Shown: in pieces, positions 3,935 through 21,560 of the stretch
How the letters are laid out: the number at the start of each line of letters is the position of its first letter
Numbering within the stretch: the first letter of the stretch is position 1
From: a virus
Direction: 5' to 3' (one strand)
DNA length: 28,371 nucleotides
IMG/VR virus record: IMGVR_UViG_3300028592_000003
Location: 1-28,371 of that record
Translations under genes and position numbers: made by a program
The notes under the pieces: generated by a model
Told to the model about the DNA's origin: nothing
The model's database searches: none
What the model saw: the letters and a program-made list of their open reading frames with translations, nothing else

Positions 3935-4371
3935 CACGCCACCTTCTTCCGACGGCGGTTGGCCTCGGCCACGTTCTCGGAACGCGTGAGCCATCGGCAG
4001 TTACCCGGCTCGTAGTTGCCGTCGTTGTCGATGCGGTCGACTTGGTAGTCGGAGCTGGGGCGCTCGCCCATGTCCGCGAGGAAGTTCTCGAGCTTCATCC
4101 AGCGTTCGCAGACCGAGATGCCTCGACCCCCGTAGTTCTTGTACGAGGGGACGCTCGGGTACCGGCAGCGGGCAATCATGCTCTGCCATGAGGTGTACGT
4201 CGGGGAACGGCGAACCTTCCCGTCTACGACCTCTGTGTGGCCGTGCTTGGTAGCACTCTGTCGCGCGAGCTGCTTGTGCACAGCCGTGCGCGTGTATCCG
4301 CTGACCGGCACCTTTGACTCGCTTTCTGTCCTACGGGCCAGGCCCGAGGTGCTGCATGTTGAGTTGTCCAT
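3934..4371 (-). CDS. HNH-type homing endonuclease-like protein inserted in the structural operon
   Basis: 145 residues. The conserved block is from about residue 58: SPTYTSWQSMIARC, then YKNYGGRGISVCERW, FLADMGERP, VDRIDNDGNYEPGNCRW. This pattern belongs to a widespread family of free-standing phage endonucleases usually annotated HNH; H, D, N and R candidates for the active site are present. Such genes spread by cutting alleles that lack them. Here it separates the zinc-ribbon gene from the connector gene, a place where siphoviruses normally have none, and overlaps the connector by ATGA. The ATG at 4371 has no ribosome site; the N-terminal ~45 residues look unconserved, so the true start is uncertain. 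The exact catalytic class was not verified. Confidence 0.78.
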   Translation of the reverse strand: MDNSTCSTSGLARRTESESKVPVSGYTRTAVHKQLARQSATKHGHTEVVDGKVRRSPTYTSWQSMIARCRYPSVPSYKNYGGRGISVCERWMKLENFLADMGERPSSDYQVDRIDNDGNYEPGNCRWLTRSENVAEANRRRKKVA

Positions 4372-4379
4372 GACAATGC

Positions 4380-4395
4380 TAGCGCCAAAGCGCTA
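4380..4395 (-). other. Small palindrome just upstream of the endonuclease start
   Basis: TAGCGC-CAAA-GCGCTA forms a 6-bp stem with a 4-nt loop, ending 8 nt before the endonuclease ATG. With the larger hairpin beside it, it could hide or insulate the endonuclease gene. It could also be a regulator site. Confidence 0.4.
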
Positions 4396-4397
4396 TC

Positions 4398-4446
4398 TCA
4401 CGCCAGGTCCGCCCCCCACTGCCTAGGGGCGACGGACCTGGCGTGA
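4398..4446 (-). terminator. Strong intra-operon hairpin between capsid and endonuclease/connector genes
   Basis: A 14-bp perfect stem (TCACGCCAGGTCCG at 4398-4411 pairs with 4433-4446) encloses a 21-nt loop that can pair further (CCCC/GGGG). It lies 8 nt past the stop of the zinc-ribbon gene. The reverse-strand sequence after it has no clear T-run, so it may terminate only partly or act as an RNA-stability element. It would separate highly expressed capsid genes from the downstream neck and tail genes. Confidence 0.6.
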
Positions 4447-4453
4447 AATCATG

Positions 4454-4780
4454 TCACTTAGCCGTCCTGCGGCCAGAAGTAGTGCTCTTCGAAGGGGCAG
4501 AAGAGATTTCCGCGTCCGCCTTCGACGAGCGGCGTTCCGTCGTACGGGCAGGATTGCGGGGCGCTTCCTCGCTCTTCGTCGAGGAGCTGTCGGTCGAGCT
4601 GGGCGATTCCGATGAGGGTTTCCCAGGCCACTCCTCCACCTCCCCGGCGTGGGACGGCCCGGTGTGGACCGTGATCTTGGGCATTCCGGTCTCCTCATGG
4701 TCCGTGGACTGGCAGTGGGGGCAGGCCAGGAGCCCCACGGCGAACACCGTGGGGCACTCCTGGCAGGTGCGTGTCGCCAC
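4454..4780 (-). CDS. Small zinc-ribbon protein with disordered acidic tail
   Basis: 108 residues from GTG at 4780. The first ~25 residues carry two CxxC pairs (CQEC and CPHC), a typical treble-clef or zinc-ribbon pattern. The rest is low complexity, rich in Ser, Thr, Glu and Lys, and probably disordered. The gene follows the capsid accessory gene by 8 nt and is in the same operon. A role in head assembly or scaffolding is possible but unsupported. No known name. Confidence 0.7.
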   Translation of the reverse strand: MATRTCQECPTVFAVGLLACPHCQSTDHEETGMPKITVHTGPSHAGEVEEWPGKPSSESPSSTDSSSTKSEEAPRNPARTTERRSSKADAEISSAPSKSTTSGRRTAK

Positions 4781-11554: not shown

Positions 11555-12472
11555 TCAGAGGTAGGGACCGTCGAGCTTCTTGCGCTCCCGGCGGACAGTA
11601 GCCGCCACGGAGTCCTTGTTGGCGGTCGGAACGGCGGCCAGGACAGCGGCGACGACGTCCTTGTTCGGCGAACCGTTCGCGATCTGTTCGCGAACAAGTT
11701 CGGCGATGTTCGCGGGTTCGGGAACAGCGAACTCGCTGGTCACCGGCATGTTCGCCTTGGTGATCGCGAACTGTTCGGCGTCGTGTTCGGCGATGTTCGC
11801 CGTGGTGTTCGGCTGTTCGGCCGGTGCTCGCTCGACCGTGATCGCCCCTCCCCGCTCGTGCTCCAGGGCGGCGATCAGGCGGGCCGTCTCGTCGTCCATC
11901 AGGTACTCGTCCCGCTTGGACTGGGCGAGCGCCTTGCGCAGTCCGGCCCGCTGCTGACGCTGCCGCAGGAGCACCTGGTACTCCTTGTCGAGGCGGACCC
12001 GGGTGGTCTCCATGGCGATGAACCACACGCCCTTCGCGGCCAGGGAGACGGCCGCCCCGATGACGCCGACGAACACCGCGTCCACCAGGTGGCCGTGCCA
12101 GACGATCGCCGCCATGGACACCAACAGCGCGGCGACACCGGCGTTGCGCGGCAGCTTGATCTTCTCGTCGTCGTACCGGTTCAGGTATTCGGCGACCAGG
12201 CACGCCGCCCAGGCCACGTCGAAGACTCCGGCGACGCCGTAGCCCCACCCGGGGGCCAGTTGGTTCAGCATGGACCCGATGGCCACGGTGCCCCAGACGA
12301 TCGCCCCGACGGTCATCAGGATCGCGGCGACGAACAGGGCCTTGCGCAGCAGTGCGTCCAGGTTGAACGGGATGCGAGGGACGGACTCGGTGTAGTCCTC
12401 GTCGAACGTGACGTTCTCGCCGTCCACGACCTTCGTGACCTCACGCTGGCGCGTGATCTGGCGGAGCTTCAT
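11555..12472 (-). CDS. SpdB-like (DUF2637-type) multi-pass membrane protein
   Basis: 305 residues; its ATG overlaps the translocase stop (ATGA), so the two are coupled. Four membrane helices are predicted by eye at about residues 44-66, 74-97, 110-126 and 128-152, with conserved-looking WGYGVAGVFDVAWAACLVAEYL. A cytoplasmic coiled or charged part (LRQRQQRAGLRKALAQ) and a low-complexity Ala-rich tail ending in basic RRERKKLDG follow. This matches the Spd spread proteins encoded next to tra in Streptomyces plasmids and AICEs, which help DNA move from the first recipient compartment to neighbours through mycelial septa. The 3' coding part carries an unusual density of TGTTCG words. Confidence 0.78.
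   Translation of the reverse strand: MKLRQITRQREVTKVVDGENVTFDEDYTESVPRIPFNLDALLRKALFVAAILMTVGAIVWGTVAIGSMLNQLAPGWGYGVAGVFDVAWAACLVAEYLNRYDDEKIKLPRNAGVAALLVSMAAIVWHGHLVDAVFVGVIGAAVSLAAKGVWFIAMETTRVRLDKEYQVLLRQRQQRAGLRKALAQSKRDEYLMDDETARLIAALEHERGGAITVERAPAEQPNTTANIAEHDAEQFAITKANMPVTSEFAVPEPANIAELVREQIANGSPNKDVVAAVLAAVPTANKDSVAATVRRERKKLDGPYL
11662..11819. repeat. Cluster of TGTTCG/CGAACA words inside the spdB-like gene
   Basis: Nine TGTTCG copies and one CGAACA copy lie within 158 bp (starts at 11662, 11685, 11707, 11749, 11772, 11784, 11794, 11806 and 11814; reverse copy at 11691), plus more GTTCG pentamers. They fall in different codon phases (for example GCC GAA CAG and GCG AAC ATG), so amino-acid repetition alone does not explain them. 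This could be a clt-like loading site for the TraB-type translocase or a regulator array. Low-complexity sequence remains an alternative. Confidence 0.45.
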
Positions 12473-14088
12473 GCTTCCGTTCCCTTCGTGCGGTCCGCCT
12501 GATCGGCGGTCGTGAGTACCAGCGAGTACTTTTTGTCCTGGTTTGCGGTAACTTCTCCGGCGGCCACCAGCTTGGCGGCGGCCCGGGAGACGGCTCCCCG
12601 GTCCCGGCCGATCTGCCGGGCGATCTCGTTGTTGCCAATCGGCTCGGGGGAGAAGCCCAGCGCCATGCGGATCTCGTCCGCCACGGTCACCTTGACCTCC
12701 AACTTGGCTCGCTCGGGCTTCTTCACCTCCGGCACCACGTGGGTCTGTGCGGGAATCTGAGGGCCGTTCAGGTGAACGGTGGGGTCGTAGGTGGGGCGCG
12801 GTGGGAAAACCGCCTCAACGGGCGCCTGAGGCTTCACGACGGGGACGCCCGTCAGGCCGTGGATGTCGCCCTTGTCCAGGAAGAACGCACGGCACGGCAG
12901 AGGCTTCGTGTGCTCCGCGTCCCGCAGCATGAACCAGCCGCCTCCGCCTGGCAGCGTGTCCGCCGCCCAGCCCGTGCCACCGGCGTCCTCACCGAAGACG
13001 TTCCGGTTGATCCGGGGCGTCTCCACCCGAAGACCCACCACCGCCTCGGCCTGCGTGCCGATCCCGACCGGCAGGCCGCCGGACTTGTCCGTGGGGTATT
13101 GCGACGCCCACACCAGCCAGAAGTCTGCGGCCCGGCCAAGTTGTGCCAGGGACTCCAGCTGGTGGACCACGTCGTCCAGACCGGCCCGCTTCAGCTCGGC
13201 ACCCTCGTCCACGATGATGATCTCGGCAGGCTCGGCAACCGTCGGCTCGTGGTCGACATCGCCCCGGGCTGCCATCTCCTGGAGGCGTGTCCGCATGCGG
13301 GAGCCGATCCGGTTGACCATCTCCCGGACCTGGTCCGGGGTGGTGGCCACGTCCACGCCGTCGATCCGCTGCCACAGGCTGGCCTCGACCGCCTTGAGGT
13401 CCACATAGGACAGCCGGGCGTTGCGCGAGACCACGGCGGCCGAGCCGATGATCCGCAGGAAGACGGACTTGCCCGCGCCCGAGGTACCGGCCACCACGAA
13501 ACGCTGGCGGACCTTCACCTTGATGACCTTGCCGGTCTCGTCACGCCCCAGCGCCACCGGCTGGGCGATGTCTCGGCACTTGTGCCCCGGCCACGCCACG
13601 GCGTTGTCGAGCGGGTTGCGCAGGGTGATGGCGACGACCGCCTTGTCCGCTTTGCGGCCGGGAACCAGGCGGATCGAGTCGTGGGCGACTCCCAGGCCGG
13701 TCTCGATCTGCTTGATCTTGCTGGCCACGACCTCGGAGGTCAGGCTGCCGGACATGCGGACGTGTACGGCGATCCCGTACGTGGTGCGGGCGATGCGGCC
13801 CCGCAGGAGACCCTGGAGCCCCCGGTGGGCGCACATCTTGTCCCAGGTGTCCCGCTGGAGACGCCGGGCGAGCTTGCGGGTGGCACCCATGCGGACTACC
13901 CGCAGAGTGCGCAGCTCGCGCACCAGGGCGATGGCGAGCTTCTTGGCGGCCCTACGTCCGGCGTCGGTGGAGCCGACCAGGATGAGGGTCAGAGCGAGCA
14001 GAGTGACGCATCCCTCCCACCCGAGGGAGGCGACTGCGTCGTAGATCGATTCGTCGGTCTGATTGACTGGTGTTTGTGCGGTGGGCAT
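12469..14088 (-). CDS. TraB/FtsK-SpoIIIE-like DNA translocase
   Basis: 539 residues from ATG at 14088, preceded by GGAAGG; longer upstream readings lack similarity. One membrane helix is near residues 24-41. The RecA-type motor has Walker A GTSGAGKS (201-208) and Walker B IIIVDEG (290-296). Residues 468-523 look like a winged helix (NNEIARQIGRDRGAVSRAAA, then AAGEVTANQDKKYSLV). This order matches TraB of Streptomyces conjugative plasmids, a hexameric pump that moves double-stranded DNA after its winged helix binds clt repeats. A chromosome-type FtsK is unlikely, given the small N-terminus and the spdB partner. Its presence beside virion genes is unusual. Confidence 0.9.
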   Translation of the reverse strand: MPTAQTPVNQTDESIYDAVASLGWEGCVTLLALTLILVGSTDAGRRAAKKLAIALVRELRTLRVVRMGATRKLARRLQRDTWDKMCAHRGLQGLLRGRIARTTYGIAVHVRMSGSLTSEVVASKIKQIETGLGVAHDSIRLVPGRKADKAVVAITLRNPLDNAVAWPGHKCRDIAQPVALGRDETGKVIKVKVRQRFVVAGTSGAGKSVFLRIIGSAAVVSRNARLSYVDLKAVEASLWQRIDGVDVATTPDQVREMVNRIGSRMRTRLQEMAARGDVDHEPTVAEPAEIIIVDEGAELKRAGLDDVVHQLESLAQLGRAADFWLVWASQYPTDKSGGLPVGIGTQAEAVVGLRVETPRINRNVFGEDAGGTGWAADTLPGGGGWFMLRDAEHTKPLPCRAFFLDKGDIHGLTGVPVVKPQAPVEAVFPPRPTYDPTVHLNGPQIPAQTHVVPEVKKPERAKLEVKVTVADEIRMALGFSPEPIGNNEIARQIGRDRGAVSRAAAKLVAAGEVTANQDKKYSLVLTTADQADRTKGTEA

Positions 14089-14194
14089 GGGAGTGCCTTC
14101 CGTACGTGGGTCGGCCCCGGGGTCTCGGGGTCGGCCCTTTTGCTGTTGCTGGTCAGCAGGTGTTGCTGCCCGGTGTTGCGCGCATACGCGCTGA

Positions 14195-14383
14195 TCAGAG
14201 GGTGTGTCCGTCGACTCCGGCAACGGCAACGGCAACGCTGCGGTCGAAATCTTCCGGGAGCGGGGACAGCAGGGCGACGGGCTCGCCGTAGTCGGCGATG
14301 AGTACGGACTGGCCCGAGGAGTTGATCTTTCGGAGGACCTTGGCGAGGTGCCTGCGGACGTAGGTCGACGTGTACATGTCCAT
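14195..14383 (-). CDS. Phd/YefM-like antitoxin-type DNA-binding protein, apparently without a toxin
   Basis: 62 residues from ATG at 14383, beginning MDMYTSTYVRRHLAKVLRKI. The pattern 'S..ARR.L..L...I..SG..VLI.-.GEPVA.L.P' is that of Phd/YefM antitoxins: VRRHLAKVLRKINSSGQSVL followed by YGEPVALLSP. The usual toxin-binding C-terminal tail is very short (EDFDRSVAVAVAGVDGHTL) and no RelE/Doc-like toxin gene follows; the next gene is the TraB-like translocase. It may instead repress the transfer operon, like Kor proteins. A promoter with an inverted repeat lies directly upstream. Confidence 0.75.
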   Translation of the reverse strand: MDMYTSTYVRRHLAKVLRKINSSGQSVLIADYGEPVALLSPLPEDFDRSVAVAVAGVDGHTL

Positions 14384-14419
14384 GGCGCAAATGTAGCATC
14401 TTGCGCATTTATACGTCAA
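14384..14419 (-). promoter_or_regulatory. Candidate leaderless promoter of the phd-like/tra operon
   Basis: On the minus strand TTGACG (14414-14419) and TACATT (14390-14395) are 18 nt apart, and the ATG at 14383 starts 6 nt after the -10. No ribosome site is present, so the message probably begins at or next to the ATG. An inverted repeat GCGCAA/TTGCGC (14385-14390 and 14401-14406) overlaps the -10 and suits self-repression. Confidence 0.6.
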
Positions 14420-17458: not shown

Positions 17459-17874
17459 TTGCCCTCCTTGACAGTCTTGCTGGGGTGGAAGATCCGTTCC
17501 CCGGACTCGGCGTCGGTGCCGGTGGATGCTCCGCCTTCTCCGTCGCTGACGATGGGGTAGGCGTCCCCGTTGTGCGTCACGGCCCATCCGACGACGGGCT
17601 CTTCGACGATCTCGTGGGTCTCCATGTCCACCCAGTGGGTCATCCAGCCACCGCCGGGGAGGACACCGATGTACCCGTTCAGAGCGCCAGACTCGGCCTC
17701 CATGACGTACGCGAAGTCGGGGTCCTGACGGGCGAGACGAAGCCTCCCCCTCGTTCCTTCCTTGGGAGCTACGAGGGCTTCTCCGTCGCCGTCCCAGGCG
17801 ATGATCGCCCTCTGGTACTCACCGTGGCCTTCACGCTGGAAGACGGCGACCAGGTTGGTGGTGTTGGGAATCAC
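17455..17874 (-). CDS. Hypothetical protein (139 aa), copG operon
   Basis: GTG at 17874 overlaps the copG stop (GTGA); the GGGGGAG ribosome site lies in the copG end. It begins (V)IPNTTNLVAVFQREGHGEY and has a beta-rich body with several Trp (IIAWDGDGEALVAPKEG, GGGWMTHWVDMETHEIVEEP) and a Gly/Asp-rich C-terminus. The first ~20 residues and the start-site context match the 98-residue gene at 16809-17105, so they share an ancestor at least in part. Function unknown. Confidence 0.7.
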   Translation of the reverse strand: MIPNTTNLVAVFQREGHGEYQRAIIAWDGDGEALVAPKEGTRGRLRLARQDPDFAYVMEAESGALNGYIGVLPGGGWMTHWVDMETHEIVEEPVVGWAVTHNGDAYPIVSDGEGGASTGTDAESGERIFHPSKTVKEGK

Positions 17875-18068
17875 TTGCTCTCCCCCGTGTGCCGGGCGAT
17901 GAAGTCCCGGGTCTCCTTGTCGGCGGCCTCGAACTCCCGCAGGGATCGCTCGATGGCCTCGTTGATGAAGTCCGTCATGGTCGTCCGCTTGAGCATGGCG
18001 ACCATGCGGAGCCTGTCCTTGATTCCCGGCGACGTGTAGATCGTCAGGGTGTCTCCTCGCTGTGCCAT
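17871..18068 (-). CDS. CopG/Arc-type ribbon-helix-helix regulator
   Basis: 65 residues; ATG at 18068, six bases after a -10-like hexamer. It begins MAQRGDTLTIYTSPGIKDRL. A short N-terminal strand (DTLTIYTS) followed by two helices (IKDRLRMVAMLKRT and MTDFINEAIERSLREF) is the ribbon-helix-helix pattern, in which the strand of a dimer enters the DNA major groove. It lies next to the iteron-like region and first in a four-gene operon, so copy-number or self-regulation is plausible. Whether it binds the inverted arms around its promoter or the palindromes elsewhere is unknown. Confidence 0.82.
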   Translation of the reverse strand: MAQRGDTLTIYTSPGIKDRLRMVAMLKRTTMTDFINEAIERSLREFEAADKETRDFIARHTGESK

Positions 18069-18115
18069 ACGCCTAGCTTAACGCTCGTCTATCAACCAAG
18101 CAAGATTAAGAGCGT
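18069..18115 (-). promoter_or_regulatory. Candidate leaderless promoter of the copG operon
   Basis: TTGCTT (18098-18103) and TAAGCT (18075-18080) are 17 nt apart, with the ATG 6 nt after the -10. ACGCTC (18081-18086) and GAGCGT (18110-18115) are inverted arms flanking the -35, a possible operator. Confidence 0.6.
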
Positions 18116-18180
18116 AACGCAACTACTTCACGATCGGTGACCGCCCACCGAGGTGGCGACGACGGCGTCCGGGGGGGTCG

Positions 18181-18291
18181 ACCCCACAAACCCCACATTT
18201 TTTGCATCTATGAGCGTCAGTCGTTTTCTACTGGGCTACAGGCGGTTTCTTGCGTACGGAGGAACGTAAAAAAATGTGGGGTTTGTGGGGT
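18181..18291. repeat. Perfect 23-bp inverted repeat around a 65-bp AT-richer spacer
   Basis: 18181-18203 and 18269-18291 are exact reverse complements, each holding two iteron words next to a run of T or A. The spacer (18204-18268) is less GC-rich than most of the window. The A/T runs facing the spacer could help melting, so this is the most likely unwinding part of the candidate origin. Confidence 0.7.
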
Positions 18292-18537
18292 ACCAGTCGG
18301 TATGTAGTTACGTTTCAGCAGGTCAGAGGATTATGAAGATCATTTAGGCACCCCACAACCCACCCCACAAACTTCAGCTCGGACCCCACAAAGTGCTTTG
18401 GGGCCCCACATTGTGGGGTCCGGACCGTCGACCGAGGGGCTCGTACTGACCGGTCGGTGCAACATGAGAGACCCACTCCCCCACACGAGACCAGCCGACC
18501 CCACATTTGTGGGGCGTTGTGGGCTCAGGTTGTGGGG
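18181..18537. repeat. Iteron-like array of CCCCACA/TGTGGGG, candidate replication origin
   Basis: Thirteen exact 7-mers lie in 357 bp downstream of the replication gene. CCCCACA starts at 18182, 18191, 18351, 18363, 18384, 18404, 18479 and 18499. TGTGGGG starts at 18275, 18284, 18412, 18508 and 18531. A degenerate copy is at 18518. Several are head-to-head: 18404-18418 and 18499-18514 are near-contiguous palindromes, and 18380-18390 mirrors 18412-18422. P4-type primase-helicases bind short repeats at their origins, so this is the best origin candidate. A clt or regulator array is the alternative. Confidence 0.75.
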
Positions 18538-18548
18538 TGAAAAGCGTG

Positions 18549-18579
18549 GACGCCCGGCGGGGAGAACCCACCGGGCGTC
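18549..18579 (-). terminator. Terminator of the replication gene
   Basis: GACGCCCGG (18549-18557) pairs with CCGGGCGTC (18571-18579), 20 nt past the replication gene stop; the loop can pair further. The reverse strand then reads CACGCTTTTC, giving a short T-run. A factor-independent terminator is likely, shielding the iteron region. Confidence 0.78.
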
Positions 18580-18599
18580 GCTACTGTCTGTAGTTATGG

Positions 18600-21506
18600 T
18601 CAGCGGGCGATGGCCTGCATCTCCATCCAGGTCTTCGGCTGCTCCGGACGCCGGACCCGCACGCCCTTGATGCGACGAAGAGCGGTGCGACCGCCACCGA
18701 TGGACTCGTTGACGCAGACGGTGTTCGGGAGCTTCTGAAGCTCCTTGGTGAAGTCCGGGCGCTTGATCTCGTACCGGATGTCCACGCCGGGGTTCTCCGT
18801 GCGCATCCAGTTGGTGAAGCCGTTCCAAATCTCCTTGGGGGTTGCGGAGTACTCGGGGTCGTACTCCAGCTCCTCCTCGAAGTACTGCTGGTGCAGGGAG
18901 GTGTTGTCCGCCTGGTACGTGGTGAGGGCGTTCTCCATCTCCGGGGTGATGATGAGGCCGGTCTCGGAGCGCTCGACGACACGTGCGATGTACCAGTCCC
19001 GCCACCACGTCACCAGGTGGGCGAGTACCGCCTCGGCCTCCTGGGCGAGGACGGTCCCCTTGATGTCGTACCACTCCTCGCGCGGCACAGAGATCTGCGA
19101 GAGGGGGAACAGTCGGAGCCGTCCGATGACCTGGGGCGTCAGGCGGGCCTTGGGAAGCTCGTTGGTCGTGATGACCATGGTCCAGGTGACGGGGACGTCT
19201 TCGCGGTCCTGGCGCATGCGGCGCAGGGCGACGACGGTTCCCTCGGAGTTCACGAAGCGGAGCACCTGGTTCTCGTCGAGGTGCTGGTTCTTGTCCAGTT
19301 CGTTGACGAGGACCATGCGCTTGCCCGCGACGCTGTACTCCTCGGAGTCGTGGCGCTGGTTCCGTCCCTTGGTCAGCAGTTCCGGTCGTCCGGCGAGCCA
19401 GGCAAGGTCGCTTCCGAGGATGCTGCCGACGGTTTCAACGGCCTGGTTCTTGCCGGTGTTCGTGCCGCCCTCGAAGGCTCCGAGGAGCTTCTCGGGGTTG
19501 GAGCCGTGCATCAGGTACCCGAAGAAGCGGGTGACGGCGGAGTACCGGCCGTTCGCGGTGTCCTCGTCGACCTCGCCGGGGGCGGCGCACATGCGGGTGA
19601 TCAGTTTGTGGTAGTGGGGGGCGGCGACGGACAGCGGCTCACGGGCGAGGCTGAGGTCCAGGTTGTGCTCGACGCGGTGGACGAGCATGTCGTCGGCGGT
19701 GTGTTCGTGCAGCTCTCCGGTGCGGACGTCGTACGTGCCGTTCTTGAAGTTCATCAGGTAGGAGCAGCTGTCGAACTCGCCTGGCATGGTGCTTTCGATG
19801 AGGGTGGAGAGCATCTTGACGACGCTGTGGTGTCCTCCGGCGTTGGCGAGGACGTTGTACCAGCCGCGCATGGCCTTGATGTCGGCTTTGGCCTCGGCGA
19901 GCTGCTCCTTCTTGACCTCGGCTCCGCCCTTGGCCGCCTCGATGATGGCGTTGGCGGGGGAGTTGAGGATGGCCCAGTCGGTGGCGGTGCGGATTCGCTT
20001 GGCGAGACGCGAGATCATCTGGCCGAGGATGGTGCTCTTGGCGTCGTCGCGCTGCCAGTGGCCTCGGTCCTGACGGTAGACGACGAAGGTGCAGGAGCCG
20101 CTGTCCCAGCGGACGTACGACTTGCCGTCCTGGATCTCGTGGAAGTACTCGGCGAGACCGAGGTGGTCGGGGGAGAAGCTGCGGAGGATTTCGAAGAAGT
20201 CGTTGTTGACGGACTCGTCGTTGCGCTGTTCGGGGATGCCGACGGTCTCCGTCACGTCCTGTCCTTCGTTCGGGGTGGTGCTGGTGCGGGACGTGCGGCT
20301 CTGCCAGATGTAGGGCCTTCGGTCGGGACGGTTGCGGGCCGAGGCCACGGTGCCGATGACGCCGGATCGGTCCAGACCGGCGTTGAGACCGGCGGAGATG
20401 AAGATGTCGTCGACCTCGTTCGGGTCGATCTGTCCGGCTGCCGCGTAGTCGTGGGCCTTGGCGCACTGGCGGAAGAGGGTGTCGTTGCGTGCACCCTCGG
20501 GGGTCCGGGCGACCTCGTTGGCGAGGCTGATGACGTGCTGGCGTACCTCGTCGGTGGTGGCGTCGGAGCCGCTGTACTGCGACGGGGTCCACGAGGTCGG
20601 CCGCTGGGGTCGCTTGGCCTCCTGCCGCTTCTCGATCTCCTGGGGAATCCATGCGGGAACGTTGGGGCGGGGCTGCCAGGGGTCGTTGACCCACGTGTAC
20701 TGGCCGGTGACGATGCCTTGGTTGTCGGTGATGATCGACGGCGGGGCGACGGTGTAGGCGCTCTCGGCCTTGATGTCGACGTCCTGGCCGAGTCCGACGA
20801 GGTGGTCGTCGCGTCCGGCGGAGGACTTCAGGATCATGCCGTTGGGGTGGGTGAGGTAGTACTGCCATCCGCCGGATCGGGTGCGGACCATCGGTCCGGC
20901 GGGCATGAGGCCGTATGTCTCGGCGAGGCGGGCCATGGTCTGGTCGCCGACCTTGTGGGTGCCGTCCGCCTTGCTGGCGGTGTCGACGTCGACCACGGCC
21001 GCCCCGGAGCGTCCCATGTTGATGCCGATGTTGCAGTGGGGGCGGGAAGTCCACCATGCGGTGATGACCTCGGGGTCGCGGGTGGCGGCGAGGTGCCCGT
21101 GACAGATGGCCATGCCGTTGGGGTGGGCGGTGCAGACGTTGTTGACGTGAAGCGCCTCCTGGAACCGCTCCTTGTTCTTGCGGTCGCAGGGCGGGCAGTT
21201 TCCGTTGGGCTGCTTGCCGCCCTGCTGGAGCTGGAAGACGAAGTAGCCGTTCTCGGCGTAGTCGAGCGCCCAGTTCAGCATGGAGGACCCGGCGTACTGG
21301 CCGAGGAGGATGCGACCCGAGCCGTCCATGAATCCGGCGGCTCCGGGTGCGCCGGACTTCACGAGCGTCATCCCGGTGGGGGTCGTTCGGTTCGGCGTTA
21401 CTGCGGGTACGATGTCGTTAGAAGTGCTAACGACCTCGCCCGACCAGGTTGACGACCTCTCGCCCGAGGTTGACAGATTGGCGGCAGAGCCGATAAGTTC
21501 AGACAC
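18600..21506 (-). CDS. Replication protein: Prim-Pol (AEP) primase-polymerase fused to SF3 helicase
   Basis: 968 residues from GTG at 21506, chosen because AGGAG lies 7 nt upstream; GTG at 21530 is weaker. Residues ~70-280 form a bifunctional primase/polymerase domain: LNWALDYAENGYFVFQLQQG, cysteines in NCPPC and NVCTAHPNGMAICHG, and catalytic VVDVDT near 171-176. The C-terminal third is a D5/P4-type helicase with Walker A GGTNTGKN (~680-687), Walker B-like MVLVNELDKN and sensor VITTNELP. Such proteins recognise short origin repeats, prime and unwind DNA, and drive replication of P4-like elements and many actinobacterial plasmids. It is the only replication gene here and sits beside the iteron array. 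Confidence 0.92.
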   Translation of the reverse strand: MSELIGSAANLSTSGERSSTWSGEVVSTSNDIVPAVTPNRTTPTGMTLVKSGAPGAAGFMDGSGRILLGQYAGSSMLNWALDYAENGYFVFQLQQGGKQPNGNCPPCDRKNKERFQEALHVNNVCTAHPNGMAICHGHLAATRDPEVITAWWTSRPHCNIGINMGRSGAAVVDVDTASKADGTHKVGDQTMARLAETYGLMPAGPMVRTRSGGWQYYLTHPNGMILKSSAGRDDHLVGLGQDVDIKAESAYTVAPPSIITDNQGIVTGQYTWVNDPWQPRPNVPAWIPQEIEKRQEAKRPQRPTSWTPSQYSGSDATTDEVRQHVISLANEVARTPEGARNDTLFRQCAKAHDYAAAGQIDPNEVDDIFISAGLNAGLDRSGVIGTVASARNRPDRRPYIWQSRTSRTSTTPNEGQDVTETVGIPEQRNDESVNNDFFEILRSFSPDHLGLAEYFHEIQDGKSYVRWDSGSCTFVVYRQDRGHWQRDDAKSTILGQMISRLAKRIRTATDWAILNSPANAIIEAAKGGAEVKKEQLAEAKADIKAMRGWYNVLANAGGHHSVVKMLSTLIESTMPGEFDSCSYLMNFKNGTYDVRTGELHEHTADDMLVHRVEHNLDLSLAREPLSVAAPHYHKLITRMCAAPGEVDEDTANGRYSAVTRFFGYLMHGSNPEKLLGAFEGGTNTGKNQAVETVGSILGSDLAWLAGRPELLTKGRNQRHDSEEYSVAGKRMVLVNELDKNQHLDENQVLRFVNSEGTVVALRRMRQDREDVPVTWTMVITTNELPKARLTPQVIGRLRLFPLSQISVPREEWYDIKGTVLAQEAEAVLAHLVTWWRDWYIARVVERSETGLIITPEMENALTTYQADNTSLHQQYFEEELEYDPEYSATPKEIWNGFTNWMRTENPGVDIRYEIKRPDFTKELQKLPNTVCVNESIGGGRTALRRIKGVRVRRPEQPKTWMEMQAIAR

Positions 21507-21560
21507 AGAATCGCTCCTGGCTGTGTGCACATGGCGTGGAATCCAACTGCGACGCGGTAA

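Follow-up and report, generated by a model that had tools for sequence, protein, structure and literature searches.

The question raised by this locus is whether a dense array of one 7-bp word, lying next to the gene of a primase-helicase, is the replication origin of a tailed phage, and whether it belongs to a type of origin already known.

Genome and near relatives

The window (the whole stretch of DNA that was analysed, i.e. the virus record IMGVR_UViG_3300028592_000003 of 28,371 bases) is a complete circle of 28.3 kb, the ends of which overlap by 52 bp. Family searches identify genes encoding terminase, portal, capsid/major head protein, head protease, tape-measure and tail proteins, and a tyrosine integrase gene. 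One large tail protein has its best matches among Streptomyces phages (31.8-38.7% identity among the 12 matches listed of 46 records), which points to a streptomycete or a relative as the probable host.

Two near relatives (L001 and L003) cover the array. The 620 bp around it are identical in both to the window, so that they provide no substitution pattern on which selection on the words could be tested. Between 14419 and about 19.4-21.4 kb, both match the window at 99-100%; below 14419, they match only short pieces (14071-14139 and 12627-12826). The stretch 12826-14419 is thus replaced or deleted at a gene encoding an FtsK/SpoIIIE-like DNA translocase (12469-14235, minus strand; possible C-terminal HTH). 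The association of this translocase with a plasmid-like Prim-Pol replicase and an integrase in a small phage suggests a phage-plasmid or a hybrid with an actinomycete integrative element.

The replication gene and its neighbours

The elements found on either side of the array are the following.
18600-21530, minus strand: rep, primase-helicase with Prim-Pol, D5_N and SF3-type helicase regions (Pfam, phrog, TIGR01613).
18549-18579, minus strand: hairpin without T-run between the array and the rep stop (inverted-repeat search).
17871-18068, minus strand: gene of a 65-aa ribbon-helix-helix (RHH)-like protein, the next gene on the rep strand beyond the array (weak Pfam matches).

The minus-strand rep ORF encodes 976 aa counted from the first GTG; the 968 aa given in the first-pass annotation would need an internal start. 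Rep matches the Pfam families Prim-Pol (2e-34) and D5_N (2e-10), and its residues 83-964, i.e. almost the whole protein, match phrog_1156 DNA primase (3e-65). The match to the P4-family C-terminal domain TIGR01613 has an E-value of 1.9e-21, but its 76.2 bits are below the cut-off of 108.7. Rep has only distant counterparts in the phage and plasmid collections (identity below 60% in each of the 357 phage and 331 plasmid records with a match). No relatives of Rep, and none of pRN1 Rep either, were found in the genome contig collection. An hhalign comparison aligns the C-terminal part of Rep with the corresponding part of nine relatives (E 7e-6); profiles of relatives match the solved primase-helicase 7ola (3e-21 over the full length, 9e-4 for the C-terminal part). 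The name of the 7ola entry is 'DNA primase'; we take it to be a SaPI protein. The predicted structure model of Rep has a pLDDT of 36, and the C-terminal winged helix is putative, read from the alignment.

The hairpin lacks a T-run and is therefore not a canonical terminator; no terminator-like site was found by the terminator search. The Pfam matches of the RHH-like protein (0.014-0.04) are all below cut-off.

The CCCCACA array

18182-18537, both orientations: iteron array, 13 CCCCACA words (word counts, clustering).
18351-18537, both orientations: second block of the array, nine iterons including two tight palindromes, pitches of 8-23 bp (word positions).

The exact word CCCCACA is found 13 times in the 28,371 bases of the window, always within these 356 bp (1.26% of the circle). 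Eight copies are on the plus strand (18182, 18191, 18351, 18363, 18384, 18404, 18479, 18499) and five on the minus strand (18275, 18284, 18412, 18508, 18531). The thirteen bidirectional 7-mers reported by the first-pass annotation were thus all recovered, as were its two tight palindromes (18404+/18412- and 18499+/18508-) and its placement of the array directly 3' of the replication gene (62-419 bp beyond the rep stop). That annotation had named a similar word density elsewhere in the circle as counter-evidence; the density elsewhere is nil.

The total number of words is mildly unusual (shuffle mean 5.5; 13 reached in 1 of 100 shuffles). Their clustering is extreme: 13 of 13 lie within 360 bp, and the best unrelated 7-mer reaches 6. 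For the extended word ACCCCACA, the log10 Poisson value of the cluster is -22.7, versus -6.6 for the best of any word in 20 Markov simulations. One-mismatch copies at 18100-18600 are about as numerous as expected (2 versus 1.1), and the core is therefore a strict 7-mer. It is preceded by A in 10 of 13 copies and followed by A or T in 12 of 13.

The four words nearest the RHH-like gene belong to a perfect 23-bp inverted repeat with a loop of 65, the longest repeat of the region, which is absent from the first-pass annotation. This 2+2 element (+309 to +419 from rep) includes:
18181-18203, plus strand: left arm, ACCCCACAAACCCCACATTTTTT, two iterons at 9-bp pitch followed by T6 (repeat search).
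18204-18268, no strand: spacer of 65 bp, about 50% A+T (composition).
18269-18291, plus strand: right arm, exact reverse complement of the left arm, A6 followed by two inverted iterons at 9-bp pitch.

The T6 and A6 tracts of both arms face the spacer. The A+T content of the spacer is moderately, not extremely, above the genome-wide value of about 35% (genome near 65% G+C). Two iteron sets thus flank an A+T-richer stretch, as in P4/PICI-type origins, and the spacer is a candidate melting region. The DNA fold of 18172-18300 has a z of -7.6 versus shuffles.

GC skew

The GC-skew plot that the first-pass annotation had proposed as a check was made cumulatively over the circle, with the mean removed; significance was assessed by 1000 block shuffles. 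The minimum is at 18508, inside the array, and the range of 439 was reached in none of the 1000 shuffles. The ORFs with a family match on both sides of the array are all on the minus strand (13/13; the ORFs tested were mostly minus-strand ones), so that gene direction does not explain the turn of the skew.

Homologous rep loci

The sample includes 20 loci chosen by Rep homology alone (18 phages and two plasmids). In each locus, the top-scoring 8-mer cluster and inverted repeat were compared with 20 Markov simulations; a cluster is called clear when its log10 value is below -10. Ten loci carry a clear cluster: six 3' of rep at 0-670 bp (Aminay, GMA4, Angelica, T25, LP-101, Mdavu), three within about 1 kb 5' of rep (Gibson and both plasmids), one inside rep (vir555) and none far off. 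No clear cluster was found in the ten others (Attoomi, Mabodamaca, Lilbooboo, phiBT1, Coltrane, Htur, NadineRae, Vibrio H188, Rabbitrun, JCL1032); the Rabbitrun homologue is a primase-only protein, and Attoomi and Rabbitrun have three-copy words slightly beyond their simulations. Angelica and Mdavu are closely related and are counted as one lineage. The array words vary by lineage (AGTGTCGG, CGGGTGCC, AGCACAGA, ATCCGTCA, ACTATCCA). Each Rep having its own specificity, a different word is expected in each lineage.

The geometry of the arms was searched in an exact form (exact 2+2): a 6-mer found twice at a pitch of 8-12, then its reverse complement found twice, with a gap of 30-140. The word must include at least two different letters; a setting of at least three misses the window. 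The exact 2+2 is found in 6 of the 20 homology-chosen loci (both plasmids, GMA4, Angelica, T25, Mdavu), always beside rep, versus 9 of 1350 simulated sequences. It is also found in BIP-1 and pRN1. Both matches in the window circle are inside the array (0 of 50 simulations). The strict search was negative in P4, pHEN7, pRN2 and pDL10 at either letter setting; pSSVx was outside the search. Over 14 arrays (the window, P4 crr, six homology-chosen arrays and six chosen by the word CCCCACA), a distance of 9 bp separates 29 of 53 pairs of neighbours in the same orientation; this figure takes in word-chosen arrays and relatives and is purely descriptive.

Two scans of viral contigs for an exact CCCCACA 2+2 retrieved the near relatives and L008, L092, L268, L269 and L270. 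The arrays of L269 and L270 are directly 3' of DUF5906 genes of the toprim/SF3 type; no rep was identified in L268, the contig of which starts about 930 bp ahead of the array. A three-word scan retrieved arrays directly 3' of SF3-type genes in the unrelated phages L084, L008 and L092.

The idea that CCCCACA is itself conserved and special was rejected, since bidirectional arrays of the reversed word ACACCCC were no fewer, several of the latter lying inside HTH_36 genes. Among the 119 loci listed for each word, at least 22 carry ACACCCC in both orientations (at least 8 with two or more each way) and at least 13 carry CCCCACA in both (at least 3 with two or more each way). Many of the 119 loci listed by the first scan are one-orientation coding tandem repeats and were set aside. 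The arrays of L033, L069, L017 and L013, which lie beside AAA_25, FtsK, ERF/HTH_36 and terminase genes, were not used.

Comparison with known origins

The window resembles P4 crr/ori1 (NC_001609 annotation), in which bidirectional 8-bp type 1 repeats lie directly 3' of the alpha gene and include a tandem pair at 9-bp pitch followed by an inverted pair. The helicase domain of alpha, like that of the window Rep, is of the P4 family. P4 differs by its word, by a second origin region, by the negative strict 2+2 search and by a primase which, according to the available text of PMC4234260, is toprim-type, unlike the Prim-Pol of the window. The same text describes the winged helix of P4 alpha as binding the repeats, before unwinding and priming.

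PICI origins are described as two iteron sets located 3' of pri-rep around an A+T-rich region (available text of PMC6092414). By this description, the PICI/SaPI pri-rep-ori resembles the window in having its origin immediately 3' of rep. PICIs are satellites; the window phage, in contrast, encodes capsid, portal, terminase and tail proteins of its own. In SCCmec, the C-terminal domain of the helicase Cch2 binds short iterons directly downstream of its own gene; unlike the window, this origin has three AAGTG iterons and a separate primase-polymerase (available text of PMC7581432).

In pRN1, the origin was shown to be a stem-loop of 100 bp that lies 54 bp beyond the Prim-Pol/SF3 gene; it is stated to lack iterons, and a similar stem-loop is named in Bordetella phage BIP-1 (available text of PMC4234260). 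The window shares the general form of this origin, in which arms of about 20 bp enclose a loop of about 60 nt on the 3' side of a Prim-Pol/SF3 gene, but with its 13 iterons it departs from the absence of iterons stated for this type. The pRN1 arm itself (TTATGTCCATAGTGTCCAACT, 21 nt) carries TGTCCA twice at 9 bp (loop 58), and the BIP-1 arm (TTGCCTCGTTTGCCTCGTTTCT, 22 nt) a 9-bp unit twice (loop 60). Since the BIP-1 stem-loop was named by PMC4234260 and its sequence was examined after the hypothesis had been drawn from pRN1, it is an independent check. pRN1 and BIP-1 thus share with the window a Prim-Pol and SF3 replicase and an inverted repeat 3' of rep with arms tandem at 9 bp. They have only four iterons each, where the window has nine more, and have therefore been described as stem-loops. 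In the wider pRN family the signal is weaker, and among single arms it is clear in pRN1 only: the tandem signal per arm has a shuffle p of 0.007 in pRN1, 0.16 in pHEN7, 0.19 in pRN2, 0.53 in pDL10 and 0.70 in pSSVx. When these five arms are pooled, offset 9 gives 32 identities of 67, versus 0.19-0.30 at other offsets (p 0.0008); pRN1 and pHEN7 are related (72% in Rep), so these two arms are not independent.

Nature of the array

An iteron-type replication origin at the array is well supported: the array lies 3' of rep, its words are clustered, the skew minimum is inside it and the same arrangement is found beside related rep genes. It is very probable that the array is the origin of the phage and that its iterons are read, as predicted, by the phage's own Prim-Pol/SF3 replicase through a DNA-binding C-terminal part. 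Counting against this reading are the ten of 20 homologous loci that lack a clear array, the negative strict 2+2 search in P4, pHEN7, pRN2 and pDL10, and the RHH-like gene beside the array. Of the proposal in the first-pass annotation that this may be a new origin type, the iteron origin stands and the novelty of the type does not, the type being known from P4 crr and PICIs. The array adds to this type a case from a tailed phage, and its word is new.

The array could instead be an operator or a partition site, the 65-aa RHH-like protein binding the 7-mers for self-repression or for copy pairing and segregation. RHH proteins often read short repeats, omega and ParR-type proteins being models for such roles, and the gene of this one, identified by sub-threshold matches, is the next past the array and could encode its reader. 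This type of array accompanies rep genes, however; the skew minimum indicates replication, the pitch is not that of a regular heptad, and in the six homology-chosen loci with 3' arrays the next annotated gene is not called RHH (several are 'hypothetical protein'). An operator or partition site is therefore unlikely. Slightly less likely again is an origin read by its shape, in which the 23-bp repeat would be extruded as a stem-loop and the words would be mere by-products, as proposed for pRN1 and BIP-1 (available text of PMC4234260). The perfect arms, the fold z of -7.6 and the need of pRN1 for an intact stem-loop reported there agree with it. Against it, nine more words lie outside the stem (18351-18537), and in the window, pRN1 and BIP-1 alike each arm is itself a tandem repeat at 9 bp, a feature that a stem acting by shape would not require. 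The pRN1 mutants described in that text are arm truncations and a loop deletion and include no compensatory arm change; they break iterons and stem alike and therefore do not decide between the two.

Two further explanations are less probable still. Repressor stoperators, or other scattered silencing or regulatory sites, would account for many copies of a single word, but every copy is in one place and none is spread over the genome, which makes them very improbable. The least probable is an origin dependent on host DnaA with CCCCACA as a variant DnaA box: CCACA is common to the word and the DnaA box, but exact TTNTCCACA is found 0 times in the window, and its one-mismatch sites number 3 versus 10.7 expected, none of them in the array.

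Proposed mechanism and possible common architecture

In the iteron origin, the inverted pairs of tandem iterons at 9-bp pitch would position Rep subunits on either side of the spacer, facing opposite ways. Two helicase rings would assemble at these pairs and then melt the A+T-richer spacer, and the Prim-Pol domain would prime bidirectional theta replication. Binding of the words by the C-terminal part of Rep and the loading of two rings are proposed by analogy with P4 alpha, SaPI Rep and Cch2 (available text of PMC4234260 and PMC7581432); melting, priming and bidirectionality are inferences as well.

A new proposal is that stem-loop origins (pRN1, BIP-1) and iteron origins (P4, PICI) of SF3 primase-helicases share the 2+2, 9-bp geometry; judged from sequence comparison, there is an even chance that they are one architecture. 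It would consist of two inverted pairs of tandem iterons at a pitch of about 9 bp, separated by a spacer of 40-130 bp, each pair docking one ring, a description to which equal weight is given for and against. Its extent, just as evenly poised, would include archaeal plasmids, actinobacterial, Bacillota and Proteobacteria phages, and satellites, with the geometry and not the sequence conserved. The window phage, with a perfect 2+2 stem and nine more iterons, could with the same balanced probability be the intermediate that reveals this architecture. No earlier statement of this unification was found in the titles and abstract openings listed by searches of the open-licence literature.

The array provides a testable origin for a phage group without one described in the literature searched, and opens to test the question whether sequence or shape is what is recognised at such origins. 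It also gives a search rule, by which 2+2 tandem iterons at 9-bp pitch beside rep indicate likely origins; the rule finds candidates in mycobacteriophages, in Gordonia and Lactobacillus phages and in Streptomyces plasmids.

Other repeat clusters

Arrays of TGACACCCC-like words in L176, L198, L209, L226, L151 and L131 are inside HTH_36 genes or similar genes (the domain was scanned in L131, L151, L198 and L226; the other loci are assigned by similarity to one of those). These in-gene arrays look like lambda-O-style origins within an initiator gene. In the Methanomicrobiales virus vir555 (L246, about 4303-4594), CAGTTGAA is found eight times within the primase gene, a possible in-gene origin. 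The window itself carries a weaker second word cluster (GCCGAAC six times in 360 bp, 11662-12000, plus overlapping words), which falls inside the gene at 11555-12472 and may be a coding repeat. A linear plasmid of Streptomyces caniferus (L130, 2825-3251) carries, immediately 5' of its split Prim-Pol/helicase genes, a dense array of AGCGACTGA that includes 2+2 elements; this array is a candidate origin for Streptomyces plasmids that have such a split pair.
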